From NCBI GenBank assembly GCA_903813345.2, contig CAIIXF020000008.1, positions 23,234,822-23,298,821 on the forward strand: 64,000 nucleotides of DNA, in the 5' to 3' direction. The translations under genes and the position numbers were made by a program. The DNA is from Owenia fusiformis. Taxonomy: Eukaryota; Annelida; Polychaeta; Sabellida; Oweniidae. Position 1 is the first letter of the stretch. Each line of letters starts with the position of its first letter. Below the pieces are notes generated by a model, which saw nothing but the letters and a program-made list of their open reading frames with translations, was not told the origin of the DNA and ran no database searches. Below are positions 10,074 through 50,561 of the stretch, piece by piece.

Positions 10074-11153
10074 CTAATGGTTTCTGAGCCCCCGGTGGTG
10101 GTTTTCCCCTGACCTGTAAAGTGGCACCTTCATACTGTACATCCTTATTTTCATCTTCCTCCAAGTATGCTGTATTTACAAACCCTGAAGTTGGTACAGG
10201 AGGGCGACCTTGTTCAGAAAGTGCTTGCATTTTTTTAGAGCCCCGCAAGGACTCTCGTAAAAAATTTTGTTCCCTTGTATATTTATCCTCTTCCTCTTTG
10301 CGTTTGCGTAGACTTTCCTGATGCATCCGTATACGCTCTAATTGCTCCTTAGAGATATCATCTCTTGTAAGCTCCTGGGAACCCATAAATCCAGCATCAG
10401 TGCTGCTCTCCCCACCAGGGTTATTTATCTGAATACTAGGGGCAGGATTTGATGGTTGGGGAGGCACATAGCTATCCCGTGATTTTAACGATGGATAACT
10501 TGGACGCTGTTTTACTGTACCCTCAAAGTTCTCTGGTACATCAATAGCCATTTCTCTACAGTCACTGCTGTCACTATACTCTACAGCACCTTCAATGAGA
10601 GGTTCAGTACTTTTACTTGGTTTACCATTTTGATATAAAGGGGGTCCATTTGAGTTATATCCCTCAATATAGTTACTGTTATTGTAATCCGTTAATGAGT
10701 CCTTCGAGCTACTTGATGGGATGTGACCATTTTCCTGTGATGTGTTTTCAACTTGCACATTTACTTTGAGTGGGTTTCTAGAGTCAACTGCATATCCATT
10801 CATGTTTGAGGTGTTTGAGTTGCCGTTAATTGCACTTGGGGTATAGGAGTGACCGTAAGCTGGAGTCACACTGTCATGGTATGTGGGGCCTGCTGGGGGA
10901 GCAGGTCTCATATGGGGGGATGGACTAGAGTTATTACTAGGGTGCTGCACTACCGATGGAATAGAATCATGCAAATTATTATGTCCTATATTGCCGTTTG
11001 TTGTCTGTAGGTCTCCGTTGTCATGAAGACCAGACAATTTGGTCATATCTATGGGTTTGAGTTTATTAAGAGCTGATAGTCTCTCTAAGCGTTCTTTAGC
11101 CTGGTCTTCTACAGCAATTACGTAAGCATCTTGTATCTCACCTAACTCAAGTC
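10074..11153 (-). CDS. PALS1: PALS1/MPP5-like large exon: disordered N-region and EMAIDVP motif
   Basis: A 1080-nt internal exon (359 full codons plus split codons at both ends). The acceptor is GTGTACTTCCAG above 11153 and the donor is TTAG|GTAAGT below 10074. The start LELGEIQDAYVIAVEDQAKE is charged and helical (residues 1-45). Residues 46-195 are rich in N, S, P and G and look disordered. CREMAIDVPENFEG (199-211) matches vertebrate PALS1 REMAVDCPGDLG, the conserved region 1 reported to bind the Par6 PDZ. Residues 268-300 (EQLERIRMHQESLRKRKEEE) match PALS1 [32 protein letters not shown] (323-334) aligns with GIDNPMFDTEEG. The exon therefore covers the whole region upstream of L27N in PALS1 plus about 195 extra residues. 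Phase 1 entry and exit fit the 41.6-kb and 6.3-kb exons. The ATG at the very left of the open frame lies in intron sequence and is not the start. Confidence 0.88.
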
Positions 11154-12715
11154 CTGGAAGTACACAAAACAAAACAAAGATAAATAAAATTTTTGATAAC
11201 TGTGAAATGAAAAAGCACAAAGGGCAACATTTTAAATGAAAACTATCTAATGCTGATACATCTGCATGTATCTAAAAAGAAGAGGCAAATACTGTTTTGA
11301 ACAAGAACCTTCATAATTTTTGATGCAATTTATTTTAGAATTAATAATACAAATAATACAATAGCCCATAGAAACCCATTATCCAATTAATAAGGTATTA
11401 TTTTCCCCATTTTGCTTGTTCCAATATTCAAGCTATTATTTCACTTTGACAGTTTACAGCCTCAATGTTTCAGCTAAGATTAATGTTTCTGGAATTCATA
11501 AATAATTTAGGTTGAATTTTATACAATAGGGGTATTAGTAAAGTAAGTGTCTAGACTGCTGCTATGAACAATCTGCAAGTTTTTCATGCTAACTAATTTT
11601 CTCTCTTTTCCACAGTATCTTAGTTAAATAATGTTTTATTTAACTATATGAACTTGGTCGCAAGCCCTGGTGTACGAGCCAGTATTCGAGTTTATATTAT
11701 TTGGCAACATCATTGCTATGGTATTTTGTGAAAATAATATGGCAAAAACATTTCCAAATAGAATCAGAATTATGATTAAGGACATATCACTAGCCACAAT
11801 AAGAAATGTTGGCTGCCAATGCAGAAGGCTCTTATAATAATGAAGTAATAAATAAACCTGTTATTAACGTATGTGAAATTAGAACATCATGAATAAATGA
11901 TCAACCCTTGTGTAAATCATACTGAAAAAAGAAGTCACAATTTACAACCCCTAGATACTCATACTGGGCCTTTGGGAATTCACATTAAAGCTTACAAATA
12001 CATATTAATATTTGTTGCAGTTTGGTGCCACTCTCCAGTCTCTTCCAGAAATCAAGGCTATTATTAAACATTATTCAAGATCATATTTGTGCCAAAGAAA
12101 ATGTTAGTTTTTCTCATTAGTCTTACAGTACTTTATCATTAGGGTCATGTACATGTACAGTATATACAAAATACTATGCATCTATAATGCATATGAATTT
12201 ATACCATTCTTGCATTTATTCTGTACATGTATTTCATTAATCCACATTGTCACTCATATTTTCTCATCATTTTAGATTTATTCATTCTTTCATTTTATCA
12301 AATATGAAGGTAATGCAGAATTTTCTCCTTCAGATCTCTAATAAAAACTTTACATAAGATTTAAAACATTAGGAAAACAAAGCTTGAACAGTGAATATTG
12401 GCCCTGTATTAAACATCTAGCTTACTTTAAAACTCATAACTGAAACTAGAGGAAAACATTGTTCCATATATGAAACCAGTGATATTACATATCCTATAGT
12501 AAATATGATGTGATAAGAATGAGAGAATGAAAGTGAACAGTTAAGAGAAATTGCTCTATGAATGTTGTTACTATTAGCATGCTCTCGATTTTCTTTTCCT
12601 TATAATTAGATAATCATCAGATAAAGCAATAACTCAATTCTGAACAGAAATAATAAAACGTTCAGATGCTATTTCTTTACTTATTATCAGTGTGAAAGGC
12701 CCTTGTTGACTATCT
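11154..12715. other. Intron sequence, nothing recognised
   Basis: Start of the roughly 30.5-kb intron (41617-11154) of the PALS1-like gene on the minus strand. AT-rich, with no recognisable coding or repeat structure. Confidence 0.5.
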
Positions 12716-12871
12716 GTTTTCACCATTGGGTACCCCAATAATCTCTACAGACAAAAAGGGAGTTGATGTTTTCACCATTGGGTACCCCAATAATCTCTAC
12801 AGACAAAAAGGGAGTTGATGTTTTCACCATTGGGTACCCCAATAATCTCTACAGACAAAAAGGGAGTTGAT
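12716..12871. repeat. Three exact 52-bp tandem copies
   Basis: Units start at 12716, 12768 and 12820 with GTTTTCACCATTGGGTACCC and end AAGGGAGTTGAT. No differences are visible between the three copies, suggesting recent expansion. GGGTACCC is palindromic inside each unit. Confidence 0.95.
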
Positions 12872-13565
12872 GAAAGTGTGTTCTGGTTGTATTCCTTTAC
12901 AAGGTATCACTTTCACATCTGACAAGAAACAAGAACCTGTTCAGACAGCTGAAACAGCTTTATCTCAGTGCTATAGGGTACAAATTCTACAAATACTCCA
13001 CTACATGTAAAATGCAGTGTTAGGGAGCAAGAATCAAGAAAAGAATCTATTAAAGATGCCAGTTCTACCATACTGACATGTTTTTTTAATTGTTTTATTC
13101 ATTTATTTACTTCCCTTGTTCAGCAAATACAACACTCCCTATACTTACACATCTAGATTATATTTTATAGGGGGGGGGCTATACTAGGTAGTGATAGATC
13201 GTATAATTATTGTGTTAGACAAATGCTTTACATTCTTGGTTTAGTTAGAACAGGGAGTTCCCTGAACAAGTCAAGATAGATTACATGCAGCTAAGTATGT
13301 GCTATAAGAAGCCCCAAAACACAAAGTTCAATGTTGATTCATTGTTACTAATTCATCACATTTCAAATGAATATCAAATTTAACAGGAGGAATTTATTAT
13401 TAAAATTCTAATGGCTTGTAACATATGTGCCTGTTAATATTTTTCCTAATATACTGTAAAATTGTCTTCTTAGCCCAAGACACAGTAACGTTAACACATT
13501 AATTAGTGGTATACTTTTCCACTTAACCGCAATCCAACCATACCAGACAAATCAAAGACACGTGA
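12872..13565. other. Intron sequence, nothing recognised
   Basis: No supported feature. A G9 run occurs near 13171-13179. Confidence 0.4.
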
Positions 13566-14045
13566 ATGTGCCTAATATATTGCTCTAAATGATACAATCT
13601 TTGAAAATTTAATATCATTCACTGAAAAAGAAAAAAGTGAAAAAAACTGCACTGAAAGCAATCTATTTTCCTTTTTATGACCGTCATTTTTGTTTCAGAC
13701 AACTTTCTAAAATTTCAAAGATTGTATCATTTAGAGCAATGTATTGAGCACATTTTCTGAAAAATTCAAAAGATTCTGTTCAGTGACCTTTCTTATGCTC
13801 CTACTTTTAGCTATTTTTCAGTCACATTTTCAGAGGGCTGAAAAAATTATTTCATCATGTTTAGGGTCATTCTGACTTAATGTACATCCTGATCCTGGTC
13901 ATGTAAATGTTATGTGGAAGTAGTTTAACTGACTGGAGGTCAAAACAGAACTCTGATATCTTGGTTCAAAAAATGTTTGAAATCAAGCATGGTTTTGTAA
14001 TTTCCTATTTTATCATTTCCTGATAGTATCATGAGACCTAAGTTC
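13566..14045 (-). mobile_element. Truncated copy of the 37.4-kb palindromic element
   Basis: Holds the centre and one full arm of the foldback element at 37381-38137: TAATATATTGCTCTAAATGA on the left pairs with ATTTAGAGCAATGTATTGAG at about 13730. The right arm then continues through CTTTTAGCTATTTTTCAGTC and TTGGTTCAAAAAATG to CATGAGACC near 14030. The outer part of the left arm is missing and the right TTAA is not kept, so it is a decayed partial copy. Confidence 0.7.
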
Positions 14046-16115: not shown

Positions 16116-16261
16116 ATATTATTATTATTATGAGCTTTATTATACTTGTATCCCACATTTGGGCAAAGTGTACAGCTTAAACAGAAAAAAAATGAAAAAG
16201 CTTAACTAATTATCTATATAGTATATTAACTAATCAAAGGGTGCTTGATCATTGCAAGATT

Positions 16262-18382
16262 TTATTGGATGCATTTCGTGTTTTTTTCTCTCTCGATAAA
16301 AATATTAGATATATATTTTGCTAGTATATTTAATATTATTCCCTCTGAATTAAATAGAAACATTAATTTATGTTCCACGTTATTCATGTTTTCTAAATTT
16401 TGACAGTGTTTTTTTATTTTATCCATGTAACTTGACCGAACATCTTTTAACTTATTGCATTCTAATAGGTAATGACATTCTGAACCGGTTTTCTTGTTAC
16501 ACATTAAACATTTTCTTTCTTCAATAGGGGTAATTGGTTTTGTGTAACGACCTGTTTCGATTTCTAATTTATGTGCGCTAATTCTTAGCTTTGTCAAGTT
16601 ATTTCTGTCTATTTCATTTTTGATTAAATCCAAGTAGGGTTCCTTGTTCCATTTTGCTTTTATTATCTTATAAAACCTCAATTTACCATTATTTGATTTT
16701 ATTTTAGTTTCCCAAAATTGTATGTATCTATTTTCCAGTAATTTCTTAATTTCTCTTGGTTTTAAGTTTAAATAGTTTGGTGAAGTACCATTGTAAATAT
16801 ATTTAAGTACATCATTGATGTGCGTGAGCCATGATTGTTTATTCATATCTGTCAGTTGTTTATTTACCTCAAGGGCTTCACGTAGAAGCGAGTCGGTTCC
16901 TTTATTGTTAATATGATTAAGATATTTCATTTGTTGATAAAACAAAGAAATAAATAGTGGAAACCTACCTAAATCGCCTCGTGTAGCGTCATTACTGGCC
17001 TTTCTGTTAACACCGAGTATCGATTTCATAAATGATATATGAAGAGATTCAAATGTTATTCCATCATATCCCTTTTCTAATGCCCATTGTGGGTCTTTTT
17101 TAATTTTACTCGAGTTTAAGATACCCGTACCCCATATATCAGATCCATAGAGGCATATGGGCTTTATGAGTTGATCAAATAGTTTTAAGCATAATGATGG
17201 TTTCATATTACCATTAGAAATTAGACTTAATAATTTAAATTTTGCCTTTTCAGCTTTGTCTTTGATATGCTGGGCTGCAGGTCTCATTGACCCACTTATG
17301 CTTAATTCCATTCCCAGGTAAATGTATCGTGAAACAGATTCTATTTTGTAATTTCCTATAAAGAAGTGATTATCAATAAGTCTACCATTTTTATTCATTA
17401 CCATAATTTTGGTTTTATCAGTGTTGATATCTAAGTGCCATTCTTCACAGTATTTTTTTAATTTGTCCAATTTGGTTTGCATTTCATCTTTTGAGGATGC
17501 GATAATTACTAAGTCATCAGCAAAAAGGAGGCTTCCAATTCGCTTATTATTTAATAATGGGTCTGTTTTGAGATCTAATGTTTTAATAATGTCATTTATA
17601 TATATATTAAATAGAAGAGGACTCAGGGGGTCCCCCTGTTTTATTCCCTTGTTACAGTCAAATTCATTGGTAAATAAACCCTCATTATCTAGTCTGACTC
17701 TTGCTTTTGATTGTGAATATATATGTTTTATCATTCTATAGAATAAACCGTTTACACCCGATTGCAAAAGTTTCAAAAATAATCCATCATGCCATACCGT
17801 ATCGAAAGCTTTCCTCAAATCAACAAAACACATATATATATTCCCTTTTTCACTTAGTACATATTTATCCACGAGGGTTCGTATTATGAACATGTGGTCA
17901 GTTGTTCGTGCTTTCTTTGTGAAACCGGCTTGATTTTCTGATATTATTTTTCTGTCATGTACAAAGGCGTAAAGTCTATTATACAAAATTATTGAAAATA
18001 ATTTGCCAAAGCAATCAGAAATAAAAATACCTCTGTAATTTCCAGGGTCTTTCGTCGTTCCTTTCTTAAATAACGTAACGACTGATGAAATATTCCATTT
18101 CTCAGGGAAAACTGTTTTGCTCAGTAATATGTTAAACATTTTACATATAACATTATTTAAAACTGAGTATGACGCTTTAATCATTTCATAGCTAATGCCG
18201 TTAAAACCCGAACTCTTGTTGTTCTTTAATTGCTTAACTGCCTTGTAAACCTCGTTTTCTGTTATTCTGAAGCTAAGTTCGTCAAAATGATTGTCGTTTT
18301 CTATTGATTTAACAATTTCGTTGACTTTTTTTGTTGTTTTCGGTATTTTTATCCTTTTCAAATAATTTGGAAAAATGTTCAT
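16262..18382 (-). CDS. LINE ORF2, reverse transcriptase part
   Basis: A 706-codon frame carrying the RT of the LINE. Motifs in order: SSGFNGISYEMIK (58-69), NYRGIFISDCFGK (115-127), FVDLRKAFDTVWHDGL with the first catalytic Asp (186-201), GIKQGDPLSPLLFNIYIND (246-264), and LLFADDLVIIAS with the catalytic DD (285-296). A C-terminal Cys/His cluster CLMCNK...HYLLEC (around residue 640) is the CCHC-like finger common in CR1-like ORF2 proteins. The true reading frame begins upstream in the endonuclease frame. The first 15 or so residues here overlap that frame and are probably not translated as shown. The nearest family is in the CR1/L2/Jockey superfamily; I cannot fix the clade by eye. Confidence 0.9.
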   Translation of the reverse strand: MNIFPNYLKRIKIPKTTKKVNEIVKSIENDNHFDELSFRITENEVYKAVKQLKNNKSSGFNGISYEMIKASYSVLNNVICKMFNILLSKTVFPEKWNISSVVTLFKKGTTKDPGNYRGIFISDCFGKLFSIILYNRLYAFVHDRKIISENQAGFTKKARTTDHMFIIRTLVDKYVLSEKGNIYMCFVDLRKAFDTVWHDGLFLKLLQSGVNGLFYRMIKHIYSQSKARVRLDNEGLFTNEFDCNKGIKQGDPLSPLLFNIYINDIIKTLDLKTDPLLNNKRIGSLLFADDLVIIASSKDEMQTKLDKLKKYCEEWHLDINTDKTKIMVMNKNGRLIDNHFFIGNYKIESVSRYIYLGMELSISGSMRPAAQHIKDKAEKAKFKLLSLISNGNMKPSLCLKLFDQLIKPICLYGSDIWGTGILNSSKIKKDPQWALEKGYDGITFESLHISFMKSILGVNRKASNDATRGDLGRFPLFISLFYQQMKYLNHINNKGTDSLLREALEVNKQLTDMNKQSWLTHINDVLKYIYNGTSPNYLNLKPREIKKLLENRYIQFWETKIKSNNGKLRFYKIIKAKWNKEPYLDLIKNEIDRNNLTKLRISAHKLEIETGRYTKPITPIEERKCLMCNKKTGSECHYLLECNKLKDVRSSYMDKIKKHCQNLENMNNVEHKLMFLFNSEGIILNILAKYISNIFIEREKNTKCIQ

Positions 18383-19826
18383 GCCATTTCTCTGGTGTTA
18401 TATACGCGGACTTATTGTTTCCGTCTTTTTGCCTTAGTTGCTCAAGTAGTGACCAATATTCTTTAGGGTCATTGTCATAAAGTTCTTCTAATTTATTTAT
18501 CATATTAGTTTTAAATTTCCTCTGTTTTATCTTACAGCATTTCCTATATTCCTTTAGCAACTTGAAGTAATTACCTCTAATCATATTATCATTTGGTGAT
18601 TTTATTAGTTTTGCTCCAATTGACTTAACCTTTCTTTTCAGTATACTGCAATCATTATCAAACCATTTTTGAGATATCGAGCCCCCTTTCTTTTTACAGG
18701 GTAACTTTTTTCGTAGTGTTCTTTTTGCTGTGTTAATTATAATTTTTTCGAGCTTGTCAATACAATCATCAATATTATAGGTGTCGTTTAGCTCGTAATT
18801 GAGTTCATTTATATCATTTCGTGTTTTTAAATTATTGGAGAGGTCCGTTTTAAATTGTACCTCATGACGGGCGTCCCATTTATATTTGATTGGTTTCATT
18901 TTGATAGTATGCCCATTGTTTTTAGTCCGATTGTTACCGTGGTCGTTTGGTATTCGTACTTGCATTAATAGAGAAATCTTGCAATGATCAGAGAGCACAC
19001 AAAGGTTATCATGAACCTTGAAGTACATAATATCTGGAAGCATATTTTCATGAATAATACAATAGTCAACTACACTGCTTCCATTCCATTTATGACAGGT
19101 GAATCTACCGGGCGAGTCCCCAAGTACTCTGCCATTTATGATTCGTAAATTAGATGACCTGCATAGGTCTAGTAGCTTCTTACCCGAAGCATCAACAACT
19201 GAATCCATGCTGGAACGTTCATTGATGGTGACATCGTTGGGACAAAGCAGAATGTTTGGGATATGATCATCATAACCGTGATTATTTTCAAAATCGCGTA
19301 CTTCACCTGTTCTTGAATTAAGATCTCCCATAATCATAACATCACCTATATTAGAATATTTATTTATTTCTTTTGTCAAAATCTCGTATGGGTCATCCCC
19401 TGAGTTGAATTTACCTTTTGGGTTATAGTTTGCAGGTGAAAAATACGTTATACATAAGTACATGTCATTACTTGTATTAAAGAACTTTTTTGAAAGTTTA
19501 ACCCACAGGATATCTGGTGTCTTCGTTTTGATTATTGTCGTTCCTGCTATATATGTATTTCTTATAAGTACAGCTAATCCGCCATGACGTTTCCTGCCAG
19601 ATTTAACTCTATTTACCGAAAATGATGTGAAGCCCTTAACTCTATCAAAACATATCGGGTCTTTTTCATCACCATGTGTTTCGGTTAGACAGACTATATC
19701 ATGTGTTATTAATTCTTTGATAAAATCATTATCGTGCAATTTGTTTCTTACTTTGCTTTCAATTCCCTGAACGTTCCAGCAAGCGATATTTAAATGTGTG
19801 GTAATGGTCGTATTTTTATATATCAT
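18309..19826 (-). CDS. LINE ORF2, endonuclease part
   Basis: A 505-codon frame with an exonuclease-endonuclease-phosphatase fold that nicks target DNA for reverse transcription. Visible motifs: NIACWNVQG (13-21, active-site Asn), VCLTETHG with catalytic Glu (45-52), GGLAVLIRN (82-90), MIMGDLNSRTG with Asp and Asn (164-174), SSVVDYCII (250-258) and LSDHCKISLL with the final Asp-His (278-287). After the domain comes a helical linker, ending HEHFSKLFEKDKNTENNKK. There the frame shifts in a run of seven A (plus-strand T at 18326-18332): with six A the frame would pass directly into VNEIVKSIEND of the RT. So either a one-base insertion broke this copy, or the run is a slippage site or a sequencing error. 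Confidence 0.9.
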   Translation of the reverse strand: MIYKNTTITTHLNIACWNVQGIESKVRNKLHDNDFIKELITHDIVCLTETHGDEKDPICFDRVKGFTSFSVNRVKSGRKRHGGLAVLIRNTYIAGTTIIKTKTPDILWVKLSKKFFNTSNDMYLCITYFSPANYNPKGKFNSGDDPYEILTKEINKYSNIGDVMIMGDLNSRTGEVRDFENNHGYDDHIPNILLCPNDVTINERSSMDSVVDASGKKLLDLCRSSNLRIINGRVLGDSPGRFTCHKWNGSSVVDYCIIHENMLPDIMYFKVHDNLCVLSDHCKISLLMQVRIPNDHGNNRTKNNGHTIKMKPIKYKWDARHEVQFKTDLSNNLKTRNDINELNYELNDTYNIDDCIDKLEKIIINTAKRTLRKKLPCKKKGGSISQKWFDNDCSILKRKVKSIGAKLIKSPNDNMIRGNYFKLLKEYRKCCKIKQRKFKTNMINKLEELYDNDPKEYWSLLEQLRQKDGNNKSAYITPEKWHEHFSKLFEKDKNTENNKKSQRNC

Positions 19827-19979
19827 TATAATACGTAAATATGTTAATTAACATTCAACATCTTACATCTTACATCCCGACATACTGAAAATATAATGTA
19901 ATGATTGCATATAGTGTACTTCTGCTGATAACGTCTTAAATGCGTAGAAGTATTATACATTCTTACTTGAATTTATAAT

Positions 19980-20530
19980 ATAATTAAACGTCTTATATAA
20001 CTTATTTAGTCGCTGATCCGTCTAAATTATACAGTCATTTTATCTGACTGAAGTGTCTTTGAAATTGTGACCTACATGTATATCCTGGCTTTAAACCATA
20101 TCTGGAGTATATTGATTACATATCGAATACATATCGGAAACTACTACTACATTATACTACAATACAATATAGTACAACACAATACAATACTACATTATAC
20201 TACAATACAATACAATAATATCGCTGGTCTTGAGTGAGTAGAAGTTAACAATCCGTTTATGGTCGTAAATTCGCTGACCAGTCTAGAGTATCAACAGTTC
20301 CTTTATCGATAGTATCTTTGATACTATGCCCTACATGTATGTCTTGACTTAAAACCGTAAACGGAATGAATGAGTAAAATTCGTGATTACATTCTTAATT
20401 ACCATAGTTTTACAAAATAATGAAACATCTTAACTAAATAACGTTTAATTCGTCTAGTGTAGTCACTGATGATCAGTTTAGATTACCATCAGGCCCCGGA
20501 TCTAGTATCTTTGATACTGTTGCCTATATC
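19980..20530 (-). repeat. Degenerate tandem repeats between LINE ORF1 and ORF2
   Basis: Three related segments lie about 200-250 bp apart: around 20010-20110, 20265-20370 and 20460-20530. Each has a GTCGCTGA/GTCACTGAT start, a TCTAGA or TTTAGATT block, a GTATCTTTGATACT-like palindrome and TACATGTAT...CTTG. The last one runs into the C-terminal codons of ORF1. A TACTACAATACAATA simple repeat sits at 20140-20222. The ORF1-ORF2 spacer therefore seems to have grown by duplication of the ORF1 end. Confidence 0.55.
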
Positions 20531-21830
20531 TTGGCCGAGATCCATAAAAGTTATTGTTGCTGGTCATGTTATTGTTGTTACGATGTGCTGGTTGGGAGAG
20601 ATTACAAAACCTTCTAACCGTGCGAAGTATATTCCCGCAGAGCATTCTAGTTCCTTGTTCGTTAATATGTACGTTATCTCTGTAGAGATGGGGTTTCGGT
20701 TGGCCATTCAGTCCTAGATTGTCATTGGGGCAGCATGTGACGTTGTCGTTATCGTGGAATAGTACTTCCAATTGGCTAGCTATAGATTTCTGACGGAGGT
20801 TCCATTTTGGGTTGTCTTTTCTCGGTGGTGGTGGTAAGGACACTATAATCTTCGAGTTCGGAGCCTTTGTTTCGTTGAGTTTGACCAGTTCCTCCATCGA
20901 TTTGATGATCCTTTCATCTGATTGTACTGATTTGACATCATTACTTAACACCTGGAACACTGTTATGTCTGGTTTTGAAGTTGAACCATTTACGTAATCT
21001 TTAGCCTGTTGAATTGTATAGGCCTGTTCAACTGACACGTTAAGTCCGCTCATCCTCTTGCCATCCACATGGGACAAAATGCTTGATCCGATTAGTTTAA
21101 CAGTTGGTTCCTTCTCGCTATTCTCATCGTTGGTTATTTCTATTAGATTGTTAGATTTCCTGGTTACCACTGTGTAAGGCGTGTCGTCTTTCTTCTCGTG
21201 TGCTAATTTTTTGCACTGGAGTTTGAGTTCAAAATTTTCCTCTTCCTTATCTTCTAAATACTGGTTTTTATTTTTTATTCTTTGTTGTAGCTCTTCCATT
21301 TCATTCTTATTTGATCTGATAACTGAATCCTGTTTCTCCACTTTCTTCCTCAGTGTGTTAAGATCGTGAAGTTCATCATCTTGTTTGGATATTACTTGCA
21401 TCTTTGATTGAATCTTTTCATTTAGTTCTTCGATTTCCCTGTTTTTTGAACTTATAATTGTTTGTTGGTGATCAATTTCACTTTGATACGCCTTAATTTT
21501 TCTGGCTTGGTCTGTAACAAAATCAGCTTGTTCTTTTCTTATCTTTCTTACTCTGCGTAATTCTGTATCATGCTCGCAAGTCGATTCTTCTCCTGAGCAT
21601 CGCGTTTCTTTCTGTGATACGTTGTTCACACTCACTTTGTCTATTAGATCGCAAACTGTATTTTCTAATTTTTCCATCTTTCTAGTTATTTTTGACAGTT
21701 CTTGCTGAAGGATGCTGGTCTCACAATGCTTGTGCATTTCCTGTCCCATATATAACTTACCAGTTGCCATTGTGTAAGATATCATCAAATAGATTGAAAT
21801 GTTGAACTTACATGATGTAGCCTCTCCCAA
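20502..21830 (-). CDS. LINE ORF1: coiled coil plus SGNH-type esterase
   Basis: A 442-codon frame. Residues about 40-225 are strongly charged heptad-like sequence (coiled coil, with E, K, Q and regular L/I). Residues about 245-400 look like an SGNH/GDSL hydrolase: VKLIGSSILSHVDGKRM supplies the nucleophile Ser block, VFQVLSNDVKS an Asn block, and LYRDNVHINEQGTRML the Asp-x-x-His block. The tail is rich in N, R and Q and ends SRPRYRQQYQRY, likely RNA binding. Esterase-type ORF1 proteins are known from CR1/L2-like LINEs. The likely start is an internal Met (MATGKLYMGQ or MGQEMHKHC) rather than the first ATG; no evidence decides between them. An alternative is a captured host SGNH gene, but position and strand argue for ORF1. 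Confidence 0.82.
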   Translation of the reverse strand: MGEATSCKFNISIYLMISYTMATGKLYMGQEMHKHCETSILQQELSKITRKMEKLENTVCDLIDKVSVNNVSQKETRCSGEESTCEHDTELRRVRKIRKEQADFVTDQARKIKAYQSEIDHQQTIISSKNREIEELNEKIQSKMQVISKQDDELHDLNTLRKKVEKQDSVIRSNKNEMEELQQRIKNKNQYLEDKEEENFELKLQCKKLAHEKKDDTPYTVVTRKSNNLIEITNDENSEKEPTVKLIGSSILSHVDGKRMSGLNVSVEQAYTIQQAKDYVNGSTSKPDITVFQVLSNDVKSVQSDERIIKSMEELVKLNETKAPNSKIIVSLPPPPRKDNPKWNLRQKSIASQLEVLFHDNDNVTCCPNDNLGLNGQPKPHLYRDNVHINEQGTRMLCGNILRTVRRFCNLSQPAHRNNNNMTSNNNFYGSRPRYRQQYQRY

Positions 21831-22163
21831 GGCAGTATATGTTACTGAGTGATTGATGTAGTATAGTCATTTTGTAAACATATTTCTTTACAAATCTAGT
21901 CTTGCATACACCCACTTCCCCCCCCCCCACTGCTCCTATTATCTACTTACTTATGAAGGACGAAGTATATATGATAGGGACTAAGATACATAATGGATTG
22001 GTGCAAGATTCAGGGTTCTCGCTTGGCTTTTCTCTAGTATTAAAACCTGTGTCTCTCAATTCAAATCCTTAACTCATATGAATTTAAAGTATTATATATT
22101 GCTTATAGAATTGCATAAAGCCACTTAGTATGCCACACAATGCTTGTGCATTTCCTGTCCCAT
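21724..22163. repeat. 26-bp direct repeat at the LINE 5' end
   Basis: The segment CAATGCTTGTGCATTTCCTG plus TCCCAT occurs at about 21724-21749, inside the N-terminal codons assigned to ORF1 (MGQEMHKHC), and again at about 22138-22163, outside the recognised LINE. It could mark an internal duplication of the LINE 5' region, with 21750-22137 part of the 5' UTR, or host sequence on which the element landed. Confidence 0.6.
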
Positions 22164-33224: not shown

Positions 33225-33226
33225 TA

Positions 33227-35845: not shown

Positions 35846-35849
35846 ACCT

Positions 35850-37376: not shown

Positions 37377-37380
37377 TTAA

Positions 37381-38137: not shown

Positions 38138-38367
38138 TTAACACAAATATACATACCATATTTAAGCAGATATCAGACAAATTCATAAAAAATATTTTTT
38201 GATCGATAAAATCATCGATTACTAAATTGGAAGTGTGTTCTGTGACATCCGCTAAGAAGATATATACAGATTTCAGTTATTTCAATTTTGCTACATGGAT
38301 TTGATTTTAAATGCTCTTTGAGTGCTTACTATGAATTCATTGTACTGTTTTGACTTCCCCACTTCAT

Positions 38368-40035
38368 GAAGAAGGAACAGTAGGAACATATACTGGGTTG
38401 TAGTGTATACACTGCCAACAGTAGGAACATATACTGTATTGTAGTATATACACTGCCCACAGTAGGAACATATACTGTATTGTATATACTACCTACAGTA
38501 GGAACATATACTGGGTTGTAGTGTATGCTGCCCACAGTAGGAACATATACTGTGTTGTAGTATATACACTGCCCACAGCAGGAACATATACTGTGTTGTA
38601 ATGTATACACTGCCCACATATACTGTATTGTAGTATATACACTGCCCACAGCAGGAACATATACTGTGTTGTAATGTATACACTGCCCACAGTAGGAACA
38701 TATACTGTATTGTAGTGTATATACTACCTACAGTAGGAACATATACTGTGTTGTAGTAAATACATTGCCCACAGTAGGAACATATACTGGGTTATAGTGC
38801 ATACACTGCCTAAAGTAGGAACATATACTGGGTTGTAGTATATACACTGCCCACAGTAGGAACATATACTGTGTTGTAGTGTATGCTGCCACAGTAGGAA
38901 CATATACTGTGTTGTAGTATATACACTGCCTACAGTAGGAACATATACTGGGTTGTAGTGTATACACTGCCTACAGTAGGAACATATACTGTGTTGTAGT
39001 GTATACACTGCCTACAGTAGGAATATATACTGCATTGTAGTGTATACAGTACCTACAGTAGGAACATATACTGTGTTGTAGTGTATGCTGCCCACAGTAG
39101 GAACATATACTGTGTTGTAGTATATACACTGCCCACAGTTGGAACATATACTGCATTGTAGTGTATACACTGCCCAAAGTAGGAACATATACTGTATTGT
39201 AGTGCATACACTGCCTACAGTAGGAAATATACTGTGTTGTAGTGTATAAACTGCCCACAGTAGGAAATATACTGTATTATAGTGTATACACTGCCTACAG
39301 TAGGAACATATACTGTGTTGTAATGTATACACTGCCCACAGTAGGAAAATATACTGTGTTGTAATGTATACACTGCCCACAGTAGGAACATATACTGTGT
39401 TGTAATGTATACACTGCCCACAGTAGGAACATATACTGTATTATAGTGTATACACTGCCTACAGTATGAACATATACTGTGTTGTAATGTATACACTGCC
39501 CACAGTAGGAACATATACTGTGTTATAATGTATACATTGCCCACAGTAGGAACATATACTGTATTATAGTGTATACATTGCCCACAGTAGGAACATATAC
39601 TGTATTATAGTGTATACATTGCCAACAGTAGAAACATATACTGTGTTGTAATGTATACACTGCCCACAGTAGGAACATATACTGTGTTATAGTGTATACA
39701 CTGCCCACAGTAGGAACATATACTGTATTTTAGTGTATACACTGCCTACATTAGGAACATATACTGTGTTGTAGTGTATACACTGCCTACAGTAGGAACA
39801 TATACTGTGTTGTAGTGTATGCTGCCTACAGTAGGAACATATACTGTGTTGTAGTATATACACTGCGTTGTAGTATATACACTGCCCACAGTAGGAACAT
39901 GTAGTGTATATACTGCCCACAGTAGGAACATATACTGTATTGTAGTGTATACACTCCCTACAGTAGGAACATATACTGTGTTATAGTGTATGCTGCCCAC
40001 AGTAGGAACATAACTTGTGTTGTAGTGTCTGCTGC
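38368..40035. repeat. 41-bp minisatellite, about 40 copies
   Basis: The unit is GTAGGAACATATACTGTGTT followed by GTAGTGTATACACTGCCCACA. Most units are 41 bp with substitutions, and a few have short deletions (GTATGCTGCC variants). Because 41 is not a multiple of 3 and the minus strand of the unit has few stops, all three minus frames stay open for long stretches and give VGSVYTTTQYMFLLWAVYTL-type peptides; I regard these as artefacts. The array lies in the large PALS1-like intron. Confidence 0.95.
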
Positions 40036-41617
40036 CCATTCTGATACTGATACTGATCATATCTCATCTGTTTTACTAGCAATATGGCTGAAACGAAATG
40101 TAATGATATGATTTAGCATGATGTATGCTGTCTATTCTAATTTATCTGAGTCCCTCATTATCTCCATCTTGATTCATATTAGCTGATGCTCGTGAGACTC
40201 CCTATTTTTATCATTTTGCCAATTTTTCATTTTTGCTACTTTTAGAAATAAGTGAAAATATTTCGAAAAACCTCTATCAAAAAGTATGCTCTAAGCCAAA
40301 CAGGACAGAATGGGCTCTTCATTCTATTTTTCAACTTTCAGTGTAACTGTGGAAAACTGCCACAGTGATACATTGTAGTTTCATATCACACAGACCCCTG
40401 TTTGGAGTGCAATGAATCTCTGGAACCCACTCTCTATTATTACAGTGCAGGGAGTGGGCCACAAGGACTTGAAGTGTATCAGTAACTATAGATTTGAGAA
40501 TGCCCTCGAAACATTCAACATTTGAATAACGAACATGAAAACCATAGAATTTCTTTATGTACAAGTACTTTAATTATTGATCATCAGACGTTTTCTTAAA
40601 AGCTTCTATTCTAAAATAGCATCTACCTTCTAAATTAATAGAACCTTCTGAAATCATGTTCTCCAGTTGATATATTGAGTTTTCAAATTGGATTTCTTAA
40701 CCTCCATATATAATTGATCCAATTTGATTCCCTTACATACCGATGACAAGGTCACAAGAAGTTTCATGGGAAGTATTAAGCTTTTAATCCCTTTTCTAGT
40801 AGTAGACCATTGAGGCAGTATAATGTATATACAATCTGCTCATATCTTCAGATTACTTGTCCTGAATCAAAACTCTGGAGTCCTCTGCTTGTCTTCTCCT
40901 TGTGGAGGTGAGATGTGTAAGAGGGGGGGGGGGGTTTACAAGGGCTTGTTCCAAATCTAACAAGACAAAGTTCAAAATGATCTAACGGGGAATAAAATCT
41001 GCGATGCCAAAGTAACAATAACAACAAATACATAAAGCAACATGGTCAAGCCATCTGAATTTCACTTAGACCTTTGAGTACATAGACGAATTTGCAAGAT
41101 GTATGTTATTTGACAATAACACTAGATTTGGTTCTAATCTGAACAGACATTCAAAAATCTCAAGACATAGTAATTGTGACAAAACATAGAAACGTCCAAC
41201 CATATTTCATACCAAATATGAGATTTATAACATGACAGGCTCAAATGAAATATCTGTATTTCCATTGAACTAACAATGCCTCCATCATATTTTATTTTAT
41301 ATACTTATACTAAGAAAGAATCATGACAAAACACCTTTGTTGATTCATATCTGATTCACCTGTGATTCTTTTCCACCTAATAGATTATGTGTGTATGTAT
41401 ACACACTCAATCTGTGTTGAATTTACGTCAAAACCATTACCCAATCATTAATTCCACATACACTATGCAATAACATTGAATAAGCTGAAAACACAACCAA
41501 GTACAACCCCATGAAGTATTTACCTAATAATATGCAAAAGTCCTCCCTGTAAGTGTTAGAAACAGCCTGTGTTATTTATCAACAATACTAACACTCTAGA
41601 ATAACAAACAAACATAC
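40036..41617. other. Intron sequence, nothing recognised
   Basis: No supported feature. A G12 run occurs near 40923-40934. Confidence 0.45.
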
Positions 41618-41675
41618 CTGATGAATTACCACACCTCCGTTTCACTCGTAGTTGAATAGTTCTTGACTTGATGCA
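41618..41675 (-). CDS. PALS1: Small exon completing the N-terminal PDZ domain
   Basis: A 58-nt exon with acceptor TTTTCATCTGTTTCAG above 41675 and donor CAG|GTATGT below 41618. It encodes CIKSRTIQLRVKRRCGNSS plus the first base of a Gly codon. SRTIQLRVKRR is a typical final beta strand of a PDZ domain and continues directly from HAEIIQHIHK of the 50.5-kb exon (phase 0). The exit phase 1 joins the 10-kb exon, giving ...NSSG-LELGEIQDAY. Too short for standard gene finders. An intron of 8.8 kb lies before it and one of 30.5 kb after it. Confidence 0.78.
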
Positions 41676-42440
41676 CTGAAACAGATGAAAATATTTCATT
41701 ACTTTCTATAATACAAACAAAACTGGGAGTGACACTATATTTGGAAAGTTGAACTTGGAAAAACTTTTACACACTTGAAAAACTCATGGAAAAATGCAAT
41801 AAAATGTACTTACAAAGTTTTGATTTTGATTTCAATATGTGTTTTAATATCCAATGTATATTAGTGTAGCTTCAGTTTGATTCTAAAGCTCCTATATTTA
41901 CTAGAAAGTGATTAAACATCCACCAGCTAATCTCAAACCATCACTCAAGTTATTCCAGATATTCAATATGGCTGACTCCTATGTAGGTCATAGGTTAAAA
42001 GGCCCCTTAGAATAAACACAAACATAAACAAACCCATGTGGGTGATTATTTGCTTATTTGATAAACTTTCACCTTGCTTCTCTCTAGTATATCTACTGTT
42101 AAACAATCAAACTTGATTGCTAATTAACACAGAAACATTTACACTGCAATTAAATCTGTTGAATAATTTCACTTTACCTTTACCTGATTAGTGGCCAAAG
42201 GCTAGTATCAAGTAGTAAGGGCATCAGAAAGCACCTTTTTGAGAATTTTTGATTCCACAACAATTTGTGAAAAAATTGCCTTCGAACCAACATCTTTTAA
42301 ATCTGTATCATTCTAATTGAAAGTCCATGGTGGATGGTAAGGGGAGGGAAATCCCAGAGCTTTAGAGATAACAGACATAATTATGTCTCTTGACATTGAT
42401 GACTTCATTTGTATATCAATTTTTGCAAATCAGATATATA
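41676..42440. other. Intron sequence, nothing recognised
   Basis: No supported feature. Confidence 0.4.
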
Positions 42441-42448
42441 AGGGTTCT

Positions 42449-42577: not shown

Positions 42578-42623
42578 TAACTGGTGTATCTCATACTTGA
42601 GTGGGTTTGGGGTAGATATAACA

Positions 42624-43060: not shown

Positions 43061-43460
43061 AACCTTTACCACCTTTTTCAAATGACAAGATAGGCCTATA
43101 CTGTAAAAGCACAATTTACATTTAACATTTTCATAATATTCCTACAGCTCAATACAATAGAATTGTAACATTTAAACTTTTTGAAAAATTTTAAACTTCT
43201 GAAATTTAATTTTTTTAAATTTCTAAACTTTTTTAAACTTTTGAAAAAATTCCCGGGAGCGGGATAGATATATTATATCTGCCCGCATTTGGCCTAGAGC
43301 GGGACATATACAACATGCAGAAAATCACTGCATCCCGTGGAGTGCAAGTCATATGCAGTAAATCAACTGTGGATGAATGATTTGATAAAGATCTTACCTT
43401 GAGTCTCTTGATTTGGTCAAAATTCGCTAAATAATCAAAGAAAATTTTTATACTAAAAGA

Positions 43461-44276
43461 AAGGTTTGTGTAAAAAAAATGGGTGACCGGGTAACCGGGT
43501 GGCCGGGTGACCAGGTACCTAATATTCCTAGCAGGGTTACCAACTTTCAAGTTCAAGTTCATATTGGGACATTATTCCCCAATATAGTAGCCAATTGATC
43601 TGTCGAGCACCAAACAGACATAGCCTCCCTAATGTAGACTACTATTCGATATTTATACTTTATCATTTTTACCAAGAACTTGTAAGATATAGAGCACTTT
43701 TAAAATAATATACTACTTTATCAATATCAGAAAAAAACCAAAGTGATACCTGGTTACTCAAGATATCCACTGAATTAACATGAACACGTAACAAACTGAA
43801 TTCGCAAGTCCTAAGTAGTTTACATTTTACACAGTTTACGTACATGTACAACGACATAAGTTGCTTGATTAATTGTCTGAGTGATTGACAGGATATAGAT
43901 GATTGTTTTCTACGATGGCGATTTCTACCAGAAGATTTGTTTAATATATACAGTATTACGGACACGTAAACTAAAACGTTATTTGCCGTTTTAAACTGTC
44001 AATTAACATGCGATGTACAATATAAGGTTAGTTGCTTGATTTATCGCCATCAAGTGATTGACAGAATATTGATGTTTGTTTGTTTTGGCGGTTGGTTAAT
44101 TGGAAGATTAGTTGCTTGTTTGCTTGATTGGTTTTATGACTGGTGGTACATTGAGTTAGAGGTCAGTTGGTCGTTTTGAGGGATAAAAATGATAAAATCA
44201 AAAAATCAAATTCATAACCCTGGTAGGAATGTTAGGTACCCGGTCACCTGGCTACCCGGTTTTTTACACAAACCCC
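43461..44276. mobile_element. Element with inverted ends of ACCGGGT pentamers
   Basis: The left end AGGTTTGTGTAAAAAAAATG runs into GGGTGACCGGGTAACCGGGT and TACCTAATATTCCTAGCAGG. The right end is the inverse: CCTGGTAGGAATGTTAGGTA, then CCCGGTCACC and TTACACAAACC. The interior contains two related direct segments (about 43853-43930 and 44030-44110) sharing AGTGATTGACAGxATAT. No supported coding region. Confidence 0.72.
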
Positions 44277-46790
44277 TAAAAGAAACAAAATTTTCTTTCC
44301 AAGTCTCCTTCCCGGAAATTGATTTCCAATAGACTAGATGCGAATAGAAATAATCTTGATTTACGTCGTTAGATATTCAAAATTCAGTCAAAGTGATGTC
44401 ACATTTGAAATCTACATGTAAAAGTGCATCGAGAAATATGGTTTCAAAAATTGTTTATCAACTTTGAAAACTTAATTTTTTTTGAAAATGTGAATTCTAG
44501 TTCATGTTGATTCCCCATAGACCCCATGTTACAAAACCACAAAAAGTGAAATATCTTTTCTTGTATTGGACAGATAACATTTTCTTTTACTGGACATATT
44601 TTAATTTGCATAACTATTAGATACATACGGGTTATATGAAAATTGAACCACTAGAACAGATGTGATTTAAGTTAAAGGGAACTTTCTACTATACCCGCCA
44701 TGCTATCTGACCCGAACGAGTCACCTGGTGGTGAAACTGGTAACTACTTACTCGCATCTGCATTATTGAAATAGTATGAGGCATTTGATAGGACAATTAG
44801 TTGCCACAATACTCAATAACCGACTACCGTGCGGTAAATGGTACAAGTCCTATGATTGGCCTTTAGCTGAAGACCTGATGTACATTAAATCCAGCAATTT
44901 GATGAGTTCAAATTATTTAGAAGCATGCGCGATCAATAACTAGATATATTTTTAGATAGATGTCACCTATGTTATTTCACAGTAATCCCAACCCATAATT
45001 CCCTTTCTATTGCGGGAATATTTTCGTTGAGTGTTAAAACAAATAACACCCAACTTCAATGTATTTTCTCAATTCCTTGGCAATAATCTTGTTTCCTATC
45101 CCAAAAAAGCAATTTGAATCATGGGAATGAAGTACTTTATTTTATTATAGGAATCAAGTAAAAACCAAGCCCAGCGCAGATTGCCTGGACTCCAATTTTT
45201 TTTCAGCCATCAAAATCAATAGCAAATTACTTCGAAATACGCAAAGAATATTAGTTACCTCTTCCAAGTGATGGTATCCGTATCATTGTATGACCTACTA
45301 GATGTGTGTGGAATGCTGATTTAGGCCGATAAATAAAAAAAAATAAATACATCATCAATTTTATTTCGTCCAGTGTAAAAATGTGACTGAATTCCCGGGA
45401 ACCTATTTTCAAACCTATTGAAAACACTGTAACGGTCATATTAGTTTTCAATATGCGGTAACTTGACATCTTAGCTCTCCATTATAAACTCTCATAACAT
45501 TACCAAATCACCGTTTATCAGTTATCATCTGTAAAACTAAAATCCCAGTTAGCTTCCATTAAGCAGTTGAAGATATCGTTTAACTGTTGTGCTTACCAAT
45601 GGTATATGAACAAATGATCATACTCCAGAGTTCCAATTCTTCAAATTGTGAACACCTTGGTCCAAATCTGAACATCTTGGGAGGGGGGGGTAGGTACGAA
45701 ATATTTTGAGGATAATGCGTGACATATACAGTTTTCACATAAAAAGTCAGAACGAAATGCGTTTGTTTTTTTCGGCGTTATTTTTTTTGCTGTATCAACG
45801 ATCGCTTTTTGCTTGACAATAAATAGGTAAAATATGTATTTGCCTGACATATTCTGTGTAACAAAAAAAACTTCCAGCAAATGCGTGACATATACTCAAA
45901 TTGCAGGACAGTTGGACGGACTGCATTTATGCATACATGATATAGTTCAAATATTAAGACATTACGTCAACTGTAACATAGTTTAATGAATGATGAATAT
46001 TTAACTGATGAATGAAATTGTTCATAATTTTACATTTTTATGTCAATACTATTATGGCAGAATACATAATAGTTCAAAATCAAAATATTTAGATAAATGA
46101 CATTTTTCAATTTCTTATTGAACTTTTCTGAGAAAGTAACTACCATAGGCTACTAGGCCAGGCAAAAAGGTGGAAAATGGGTATGTTAAATCAAATCACA
46201 AGAAATTTTAAGTGACACTTTTGGGAGTGTTTCAAACTTTTTTAAACTAATTCTACTGAGTAATGACTTAGTCACGACTGTTTCTGCTATTGTAAGTTGA
46301 TATATTGATCAGAACATCTCTTGAAGCCATTGGTTAAAAGAAAGAACATTAAATCATTCAAAAAGTCACAAATATGATGATTCATTTTTCAACTCTTCCA
46401 TCTGTCAAATTCATTCATTGAAACACAAAGGCCTATTCTGTATTATTGAGGGCTGTTTGGCAAAGTATGGAAAGGAATATGAGGGGAGAAATGACCACAT
46501 CTATAAAGGGAAAATATGAATATGAACGAATAGAATAGAATAGAAAGATTAAGAAATATACTGTAGATTGTATATTACCCCCTAGAAAATACTAAATATG
46601 AAATAGGTATCTATCAACCATATTAACCCCCTGTTATTATTTATACTCTACAAATTCTTATCACTAATGATATATATTCCTGTTTCCATTACAATTTCAT
46701 AGATGGTAGTATTGCATGAATAGTACAGAAAGTGAGATGTGAAAGCTGTAGGGGAGAGGTCTATTCAGTGATGTATGAGGATTATGATTT
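44277..46790. other. Intron sequence, nothing firmly recognised
   Basis: The phrase GCGTGACATATAC occurs twice (about 45717 and 45881). Otherwise no repeats or genes are supported. Open frames at 45251-45469 and 45641-45880 (minus) lack support. Confidence 0.4.
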
Positions 46791-47045
46791 ATAGTGTGCG
46801 CCAAAACTCCAGAAAATCCCATAAACTGATGTTGAGGTAGGTTACTATCAAGTGACCCATAGTCATTATAGATTGGTTCATTGACTATTCATTTTTACTT
46901 GTCTGCAGTAAAAAAGGTGACACGAAAGGGCTAAACGGCTTGCCCCAAGGATCGACCATCAAAAAGATGAGTTTGAAAAAATCACTTTTTTTCAAATAAT
47001 AGCAGCGAGTATACGAAATAGGAGGAAACTTTAATATTGATATGT

Positions 47046-47645
47046 TTGATACTCTATTTGTGTGTGGTTATATTTATTAAAAACAATAATGGTGAAGAAT
47101 TATATATTTCTGACCTTAAAACGCCATTTTAATGCAAAAGTCACCATTGTTAACAATAATATTCATATTTTACCTGTTCAATGTTTTATAAGTATTACAA
47201 TTACCATTATATTAGTTTTTGGCAAAGTAAATAATTATAGGGCTCAGACAAGGATCAACTTTATTTACAACTTTTTCATATCTAGTGATGTTTTGAAAAA
47301 ATACTACGTTTAACACAATTCTATGTGTTAAATATTAAACAAAATAATGATAATGTGTTTGTTTTGTTGTTTCAACTGAAAAATCACAATTCATTGCTCT
47401 TGCTCTTAGAGCGGCAGGGCATATATCAGTATGAAAAATCGTAAATACAGTTGATCCTTGTGTGACCCCTACAATAATTTACTTTGCCAAAAACTAATAT
47501 AATGGTTATTCGGATATATGAAAATCATTTGATAGGTAAAATAAGAATAATATCATTGACTTTTGAATAAAAAAGCATTTTACAGTCAGATGTACCAAAT
47601 TTTGACCATTATTGTTTTTAACCATACCCTAATGGACTATCTCTA
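47046..47645. repeat. Palindromic unit inside the left arm (also in the right arm)
   Basis: Segment X (47046-47286) and its inverse X' (47425-47645) share CCATTATATTAGTTTTTGGC, AAGGATCAACT, AAAAACAATAATGG and GGACTATC ends at roughly 70-75 percent. The 140-bp spacer holds AAAATCACAATTCATTGCTC. The same X-spacer-X' block is present inversely at about 49335-49935, so four copies of X lie in one element. Confidence 0.8.
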
Positions 47646-48032
47646 CATATCGATAACTAAATTCTGCGAAATTTGCTTTAAATTTGCATTTTTGGAAACA
47701 CATCTGCTTATACCGATTCAATTCAGAACCACAATAGAAGGTAACTCTTTCATGAAAAACTTCGTCAACTTGACTGAAGATTACTGAATGCAGTCATCAA
47801 TATGACCTCATATTTGGATAACCTCTCGATCTCCTCTGTTAAAATTGTATTTCAAATCAGCAAATTTTATTCAAACCATCATAAAACAGAAATGATCGAC
47901 TGTTATTTTCAAAATGTCAATTGATAAAGTGTATTGCACTACGTGAATTGCAATGGAAAATTGATTTGACATATTAATCTAAACAAAACAATATCGGTCC
48001 ATGATTTCTTGTTAAGGAATTGTATCTTTTAA

Positions 48033-48105
48033 GCTTGGTTGTTTAGTTCAGGTGGTAGAGCATCAGAATCTAGACTAGAAGGTCCCAGGTTTGGTTAGAC
48101 AATTT
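48033..48105 (+). pseudogene. tRNA-like sequence (decayed, possibly SINE head)
   Basis: Reads TTGTTTAGTTCAGGTGGTAG then AGCATCAGAATCTAGACTAG. TAGTTCAGGTGGTAGAGCA is a good A box/D-arm match, and AGAGCATCAGA...GGTCCCAGGTTTGGTT has the spacing of a tRNA-Lys-type anticodon and T arm. The B box (GGTTTGGTTA instead of GGTTCGAATCC) is degraded and the acceptor stem does not pair well. It is either a tRNA pseudogene or the head of a SINE lying in the centre of the foldback element. Confidence 0.5.
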
Positions 48106-48189
48106 TCCCATCCTCCCGCTATATTCTTGTTTATCTTTAATAATACTAGCAATCTATTGTTCGAGTGGGTCACAGCAGCCCAACATGGC

Positions 48190-48960
48190 CGTAAAAATAA
48201 ATCCAAATACCTAGATATTGACTTTTGACCTTGAATTGACATTAACCCATCAGTAATAACTTTGACCTCGAGTCGCCTAATAATGGGTCACCAAGGGCTA
48301 CTTCGTCCCCTGGGTGCCTTTAAAGGCCAAATACCTAGATATACCTTATAATGTTTTTGAACCATAGGTATTGACTTTAACTCCATGTCACCTTAACATG
48401 AGTTGCAAAGGGCCACAGCAGCCCCCAGGGGCTCAAAACTCCAAATACTGAGATATTGACCTTGTAGGAATGACCTTGACCTCAGGACACATATTCATGG
48501 GTCCTCACGTGAAGCAGCATCCCCAAAACACCAAATATTTAGATAGATTTAGATCTATGACCTTGAGATGACCTTGACCCTAAACAATGACATTGACCGT
48601 AGCTCACTTTATCATTGGTGATCAAATGCTACTGGAGACCCACAGTAGCCAACTACCGAGAAATTACCTTGAAATCAGGTCTCCTCATCATTGGTCGCCA
48701 AATGTCACAATTGTTCTCAATTGCCTCAAAACGTCAAATTGCTACATATTGACCTTTGACCTTTAAATTACCTTGACCCATTCAGATCTTGACTTCAGGT
48801 CACCTTATCATTGGTTATGAAGGGTCAAATCATCGGGCAAGTGTTTTAAAAAGCGAACTAACTAAATATTGATATTTTTCCTAGAAATGACCTTGACCTT
48901 TCTAGAATTCACATTTTATGAACAAAAATGAAACATACAAAGTTGAAAACTGACCTTTTG
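48190..48960. repeat. Degenerate GACCTTGACC-rich repeats
   Basis: About six or seven loose units of roughly 110-130 bp with AAATACCTAGATATTGAC, GACCTTGACC, TCAGGTCACCTTATCATTGG and GGCCACAGCAGCCCC motifs. It is the core of the foldback element. Confidence 0.6.
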
Positions 48961-50451
48961 GAAATAAAATTGCTGCATATGTTTCAAAATGTAGGTATGA
49001 GTGCAGGAGCTGCTACAGGTATCACTCTGACATACATCCGTGAACAAATCAAACTTGATGTGATGCAAATCGGCATCTTTTAATTTGACATCCAAGCAGA
49101 ATGTTGGACAAATTGGCTAATTGTTAGATAAACCATCAACACTGGAATTGTCATTTGTCATTGCATTTATAAAGTAATTCCTGCCTCATCACTGTTACAC
49201 CTATTACAACAAGACGTTGCCACGTCTAGATCACTGTCTGCTAGCTAAAAATATCAAATTCACTGCTTGCTTTATCACAATAAACTTTTGTTACAAATAA
49301 GTACAGTAAAACATGCAAATAGAAGGCCCATTTGATATTAATATGTAAAGATAGTCCACTTTCGTGTGGTAATTTTACTGCAACAACTATAATGCCTTTT
49401 TATTCAAAAGTCAATCATTTTATTACTATTTTACCTATGAAATGATTTTTATATATCTGAATAATCGTTATATTAGTTTTAGGCAAAGTAAATTATTGTA
49501 GGGGTCACACAAGGATCAACTCTATTGACGATTTTTCATACTGGTATATGCCCTGCCGCTCTAAGAGCAAGAGCAATGAATTGTGATTTTTCAGTTGAAA
49601 CAACAAAACAAATACATTATCATTATTTTGTTTAATATTTAACACATAGAATGGTGTTAAACGTAGTATTTTTACAAAACATCACTAGATATGAAAAGTT
49701 GTAAATAAAGTTGATCCTTGTGTGAGCCCTATAATTATTTACTTTGCCAAAAACTAATATAATGGTAATTGTAATACTTATAAAACATTGAATAGGTAAA
49801 ATAGGAATATTATTATTAACAAAGGTGACTTTTGCATTAAAATGGCGTTTTAAGGTCAGAAATATATAATTCTTCACCGTTATTGTTTTTAATAAAAAAG
49901 ACCACACCTAAATGGACTATCATACATATCAATATCAAATTTGCCTCCTATTTTATATCCTTGCTGCTATTATTTGAAAAAAATGATTTTTTTCAAACTC
50001 ATCTTTTTGACGGTTGCACCTTGGGGCAAGCCGTTTAGCCCTTTCGTGTCACCTTTTTGACTGCAGACAAGTGAAAACGAATAGTCAATGAACCAAACTA
50101 TAATGCCTTTGGGCCGCTTCTTAGTAATCTACCTCAACATCGGTTAAGACTAACTAAGCCACTTTGGAAGCGATTTGGCGCATACTATTATCTCCTTGTA
50201 CAGCAAAGGTGTAACCATTTCTTAGATTTACCAATCCTGATCAAATAAATAGTGGCTTTGACAACACATATTCGTATCTACACTTAATTTAACAGTCCTA
50301 CAGCAATGATTGCTTCAAGTTAAGGCAACTCCTTTGCCATTATTTATTCATGGGCTTCATGGGCTATCTTGAAAGCCCATGATTTATTTAATTAACTAAT
50401 TCATCAATTTTCTCTCTTTGTATTATTCACTATAGACTGGTGATGTATTAC

Positions 50452-50561
50452 CTTATGTATGTGCTGTATGATTTCAGCATGGCTACAACCCTGGAGAGAG
50501 TTCCCATTTACCTCCAATATCTCATCTCCCACCTCCAGTTCAGCTCTGTCAGCTGGGGATC
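50452..50561 (-). CDS. PALS1: PDZ-domain exon upstream of the PALS1-like exons
   Basis: A 110-nt exon with acceptor CCTATGTTACAG above 50561 and donor AAG|GTAATA below 50452. After two bases completing a split codon (NGA, Gly or Arg) it encodes SPADRAELEVGDEILEVNGN, then SLQGCSHAEIIQHIHK. This is the middle and second helix of a PDZ domain (the GDEILEVNG core, helix alphaB HAEIIQHIHK). The carboxylate-binding GLGF strand must lie in an earlier exon, not found in 50.6-64 kb. Phase 0 exit joins the 41.6-kb exon, which supplies the last strand. Assignment to the PALS1-like gene rests on consistent phases and strand across three junctions. A separate upstream gene is the alternative. Confidence 0.78.

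Follow-up and report, generated by a model that had tools for sequence, protein, structure and literature searches.

Does the PALS1/Stardust gene of the annelid Owenia fusiformis encode an extra PDZ domain at its N-terminus? The question is raised by a window of 64,000 nucleotides, meaning the whole stretch of DNA analysed here, which covers bases 23234822-23298821 of contig CAIIXF020000008.1 in a genome of 498 Mb. In this window, an earlier note described four minus-strand exons with splice signals and phases of 1/0, 0/1, 1/1 and 1/0, leading from half a PDZ domain into PALS1 motifs. All four are present as described, with AG/GT boundaries throughout, and they encode the peptides that were quoted from them. 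Together with one exon upstream and eight exons downstream of the window, they join in the genomic sequence to give 13 minus-strand exons with a single open frame of 1022 codons, and the domain order in the joined frame is PDZ, ECR motifs, L27, PDZ, SH3 and GUK. The first three exons encode a complete PDZ domain; their phases match those of the PALS1 exons, and the frame runs on unbroken to the stop codon of PALS1. Judged from the sequence, the gene is probably a PALS1/Stardust orthologue that carries, in at least some transcripts, an N-terminal PDZ domain ahead of the ECR1-ECR2-L27-L27-PDZ-SH3-GUK arrangement usual for PALS1, and we put the probability of this at about 0.75. The proposal of a PALS1 with an extra N-terminal PDZ is well supported by a PDZ half in the right phase, an open frame through 13 exons and a single gene copy.

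Identity of the gene

From L27 onward, the predicted protein scores 516 bits against MPP5/PALS1 (structure 4wsi), and the next match is Dlg4 at 192 bits (among MAGUKs with solved structures, which include other MPPs only in so far as these have been solved). The PALS1/MPP5 structures 4wsi and 7m4r, which we take to be human, and Drosophila Stardust, known here by description only, have the same L27, PDZ, SH3, GUK order and the same ECR1/ECR2-type motifs as the Owenia protein. Where a single PDZ is expected of PALS1/Stardust, Pfam finds two PDZ stretches above the cut-off in the joined protein, along with L27, SH3 and Guanylate_kin. The L27 match (residues 546-576) reaches 31.4 bits against a cut-off of 22, and L27_N (residues 463-509) gives 15.2 bits, below its cut-off of 25.4.

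The motifs that precede L27 lie in exon 4 (11153-10074, minus strand, 1080 nucleotides, phases 1/1). This exon encodes a charged helix-like stretch, LELGEIQDAYVIAVEDQAKERLERLSAL, then a long disordered-looking linker, EMAIDVP and RKRKEEE, and it has no match to a Pfam family. CREMAIDVP (ECR1-type) and RKRKEEE (ECR2-type) can be read directly in it; the mammalian motifs are HREMAVDCP for ECR1 and RRRREEE for ECR2, as defined in PMC5180163. L27N and the beginning of L27C are assigned to exon 5 (6341-6055, minus strand, phases 1/0). The remainder of L27C, the second PDZ, SH3, the hook and GUK follow in eight minus-strand exons downstream of the window (contig positions 23227542-23221118), which end in ...EPQWVPAQWVQS and a stop codon. 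At the C-terminus, EPQWVPAQWV against EPQWVPSTWL is a further likeness to PALS1/MPP5. The second PDZ has SVIIGR where the MPP5 chain has SVIISR and keeps an arginine at the place of Arg282, a place assigned by the 36-residue spacing to Phe318 (PMC4356366). By sequence, the locus is a PALS1/Stardust (MPP5) orthologue.

The predicted N-terminal PDZ domain

The second half of the N-terminal PDZ domain, SPADRAELEVGDEILEVNGNSLQGCSHAEIIQHIHK, is encoded by exon 2 (50561-50452, minus strand, phases 1/0). Against the Pfam PDZ profile (PF00595, cut-off 23.2), exon 2 alone scores 30.4 bits and exons 2 and 3 together score 32.9 bits. When exons 1-3 are joined, with the helix stretch attached, the score rises to 52.4 bits over profile positions 5-80 of 81, which passes the cut-off over the whole fold. 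Codon use was compared with that of 4000 stop-free intronic segments of equal length, using a model trained on exon 4 from codon 41. A fraction of 0.00125 of these decoys score as high as exon 2. For the first 40 codons of exon 4 the null fraction is 0.0025, and the corresponding line for codons 41-160 of that exon is not independent of the training set. In a splice model built from only nine donors (exons 4-12) and nine acceptors (exons 5-13), exon 2 is middling, with 0.087 of AG sites and 0.127 of GT sites scoring as high, and the acceptor of exon 4 is the strongest of the four tested, in the top 0.0015 of AG sites.

Upstream of the window, on the minus strand at contig positions 23340279-23340141 (window coordinates 105458-105320), lies the other half of the domain, the first, with the sequence EQKKPVPTEEIFVKVMKMQGPDKRFGFSVIGGTDEGFEPKIEEIMS; it is taken as exon 1. 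It was located with a PDZ profile made from the PDZ domains of the same genome and applied to 193.9 kb, which hold 5248 minus-strand reading stretches of at least 12 residues. This profile, which also served for the join test and the first test of exon 3, had 20 seeds, with X at two stop codons, and included the gene's own second PDZ (L013). Exon 1 was the third-best stretch, behind the two known PDZ exons, with 10.5 bits, and the next reached 5.1 bits. Exon 1 has a GTAAGT donor of phase 1 and completes the glycine codon of exon 2. Codon scores as high as that of exon 1 were found in 0.0005 of 4000 equal-length stop-free intronic segments.

Joined to exon 2, exon 1 scores 62.2 bits on the same profile (in the version starting at 105428; five versions have the same donor). 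The best decoy joins gave 47.5 bits for other sense-strand stretches (144 scored, 5 of these with the real donor), 47.8 bits for antisense stretches (142 scored) and 45.5 bits for reversed stretches (243 scored). Candidates ending in T, which form TGA at the junction, had been dropped from this test; they numbered 100 of 244 in sense, 86 of 228 in antisense and 289 of 532 in the reversed set.

Between the phase-0 end of exon 2 and the phase-1 start of exon 4, an exon such as exon 3 (41675-41618, minus strand, 58 nucleotides, phases 0/1) is required. Exon 3 encodes CIKSRTIQLRVKRRCGNSS and contributes TIQLRV, which fits as the last strand of the PDZ domain. Among 1409 open 0-to-1 sense candidates in an interval of 39.3 kb, the splice model places two exon versions with the donor at 41618 at ranks 1 and 4. 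The version at rank 1 would start at 41705 and add ten residues.

Two origins of the N-terminal domain (PDZ1) were considered and rejected. A recent tandem duplication of the PALS1 PDZ (PDZ2) is ruled out by the 21 identical positions of 81, which is ordinary between two PDZ domains, and recent copying from some other PDZ gene of the genome by the best other match (E 0.003, 36% identity). The latter came from a search of the genome in which the first 551 residues were the query. It returned 18 places; the strong matches are the gene's own exons. There is one copy of the gene in this search. Among viral and prokaryotic contigs, which were the scope of a further scan for relatives of the N-terminal part, there were 22 and 155 pattern matches, respectively, and, as expected for this scope, no tblastn matches at E 1e-3.

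Comparison with known proteins

The extra PDZ is less new than the earlier note had assumed. According to a report of 2022, MAGU-2A, the long form of the Caenorhabditis elegans PALS1 orthologue, has an additional N-terminal PDZ that is absent from PALS1 (PMC9006659). Like the Owenia gene, it carries this domain before a PDZ-SH3-GUK core. According to that account, neither MAGU-1 nor MAGU-2 appears to have L27 domains (PMC9006659), whereas the Owenia protein has L27 above the Pfam cut-off as well as the ECR motifs; MAGU-2A was compared by description only. Besides MAGU-2A, no other two-PDZ PALS1 was found in the open-licence literature, among the matches listed and in the portions of text they give. 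A single PDZ is described as typical for the MPP clade (PMC12709283), and published accounts of PALS1 and Sdt give one PDZ, in contrast to the extra PDZ about 205 residues before ECR1 in Owenia. MAGUKs of the DLG type likewise have more than one PDZ ahead of SH3-GUK. They differ from the Owenia protein, whose core reaches 516 bits against MPP5 and 192 bits against Dlg4 and which has L27 and the ECR motifs between its two PDZ domains.

Evidence against the N-terminal PDZ domain and alternative explanations

A number of observations weigh against assigning the N-terminal PDZ to the PALS1 gene. The exon joins are predictions from genomic sequence. Very long introns, of 55, 8.8 and 30.5 kb, separate the N-terminal PDZ exons from one another and from exon 4, and pieces of a Toll-like gene lie on the opposite strand within the first of them. 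In the search with the genome-own profile, exon 1 reached only E 0.12, and its half of the domain by itself has no Pfam match; the support for exon 1 is hence its join with exon 2. The acceptor of exon 1 is poor (0.534 of AG sites score as high), which leaves the 5' edge of the exon in doubt. In the splice model, the version from 105458 with its donor takes rank 409 of 5389, and a version from 105415 with the same donor takes rank 4. An in-frame stop codon stands immediately before the assumed acceptor; translation must therefore begin in a further exon, unless an internal Met serves as the start. A search for the first coding exon gave 33 candidates, none of them compelling.

What speaks for exon 3, the weakest of the exons, is its splice strength, its phase and its position. 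Its codon score is not distinct (null fraction 0.385). With any GT allowed as donor, it takes rank 42 among 177 acceptors on the 20-seed PDZ profile. On a larger profile of 39 seeds, which had X at three stop codons and left out L013, it takes rank 24 of 177, and the acceptor at 41666, three codons further in, takes rank 1; antisense and reversed decoys score slightly above both versions on this profile. In the splice model, the best of 841 antisense candidates outscores exon 3 (18.7 vs 16.9). To these points are added that the ligand class predicted below is drawn from two residues, that Sdt is described with a single PDZ in two accounts (PMC5968619, PMC5180163), and that MAGU-2b, which is without the extra PDZ, is reported to be predominant in C. 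elegans (PMC9006659).

The three PDZ exons could belong to a separate upstream gene with a single PDZ that ends before 11153, PALS1 itself starting near the EMAIDVP exon as in vertebrates. The introns of 55 and 30.5 kb between the parts, the three in-frame Met codons that exon 4 has before EMAIDVP and the weakness of exon 3 would all fit such an arrangement, which we nevertheless consider unlikely. It leaves unexplained why the strongest of the four acceptors tested should belong to an exon that holds the start codon, and the coding-like first 40 codons of exon 4 lie for the most part upstream of its first Met. The phases bridge exactly, 0-to-1 and then 1-to-1. The three open reading frames that were scanned between 41618 and 11154 are retrotransposon-like (other frames there were judged by eye), and the nematode PALS1 orthologue likewise has an extra N-terminal PDZ. 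Much less probable still is a reading in which the PDZ exons are decaying remnants or chance resemblances and belong to no expressed gene. The neutral-looking codon use of exon 3 and the failure to settle a start exon among the 33 candidates would agree with this. Against it stand open frames, consensus splice sites, matching phases, the coding-like codon use of exons 1 and 2 and a Pfam PDZ match of 52.4 bits.

The N-terminal PDZ may also be specific to one isoform, with two promoters giving a long form that contains PDZ1 and a short PDZ1-less form as the main product. This is compatible with a two-PDZ PALS1 in at least some transcripts, and the chances for and against it appear evenly balanced. 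The pair of C. elegans forms, MAGU-2a and the predominant MAGU-2b (PMC9006659), the several isoforms of Drosophila Sdt (PMC5180163) and the Met codons in exon 4 favour it, whereas no alternative 5' exon was identified, although no systematic search for one was made.

Intron content

Within the 30.5-kb intron, window positions 16265-21866 of the minus strand contain open reading frames that resemble those of non-long-terminal-repeat retrotransposons (RVT_1, 123 bits; Exo_endo_phos, 46 bits), together with a weak GDSL-lipase-like match below the cut-off. The Toll-like receptor pieces, with leucine-rich-repeat and TIR parts in four reading stretches, are on the plus strand at contig positions 23331772-23333992 (window coordinates 96951-99171, outside the window). 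They are nested in opposite orientation in the 55-kb intron that splits the N-terminal PDZ. Repetitive tracts with long reading stretches in several frames were seen at 38332-40063 and at window coordinates 86774-92589 of the same contig; these are tandem-repeat-like by eye only.

Predicted ligand and role of the N-terminal PDZ domain

At the beginning of its helix alpha B, PDZ1 carries a histidine (in SHAEII). A histidine in this place is the usual sign of class I (S/T-x-hydrophobic) specificity. In the alignment of PDZ1 with PDZ2, which gave the 21 identical positions of 81 mentioned above, PDZ1 has a glutamate at the place of the PDZ2 arginine. In PALS1, the corresponding residue of the PDZ, Arg282, contacts the glutamate in the ERLI tail of Crumbs (PMC4356366). 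From these two residues we infer that PDZ1 is a putative class I binder whose ligand would not be Crumbs. For C. elegans, yeast two-hybrid results are reported in which Crumbs binding required both the SH3 and the conserved PDZ (PMC9006659). Crumbs binding of MAGU-2 through these two domains is consistent with PDZ1 not serving Crumbs, and is no test of PDZ1 in Owenia.

The earlier note had placed the extra PDZ next to the Par6-binding motif. In the joined protein the two are separated, with about 205 residues, mostly disordered-looking by eye, between the N-terminal PDZ and ECR1. PDZ1 would give the Crumbs complex an added site at which a partner other than Crumbs itself could dock. If the linker is flexible, it would let PDZ1 bring in a class I membrane or junction protein without hindering the binding of Par6, PATJ, Lin-7 or Crumbs. 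A shorter form lacking PDZ1, produced from another promoter with a Met in exon 4, may exist beside it, as in the nematode.

Evolutionary implications

The presence of an extra PDZ on an otherwise canonical PALS1 suggests an old feature that is missing from vertebrates and flies, and the combination makes ancestral presence followed by later loss plausible. In its fullest form, this would mean that the ancestral PALS1, protostome or bilaterian, carried two PDZ domains, of which the N-terminal one bound another class of ligand than the Crumbs-binding one, that vertebrates and flies lost the first, and that nematodes kept it and lost the L27 pair. To this whole scenario we would give roughly even odds. 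Two-PDZ architectures of this kind may be present, unremarked, in existing database annotations.

The Crumbs complex is organised around PALS1 as its hub, and models of it allow for a single PDZ, which is taken up by Crumbs or, in flies, by Bazooka. A further PDZ of different predicted specificity would bring in another binding partner. A two-PDZ PALS1 would also explain why MAGU-2A carries a domain that PALS1 was said to lack and, if true, would make the textbook single-PDZ Crumbs complex a reduced form.

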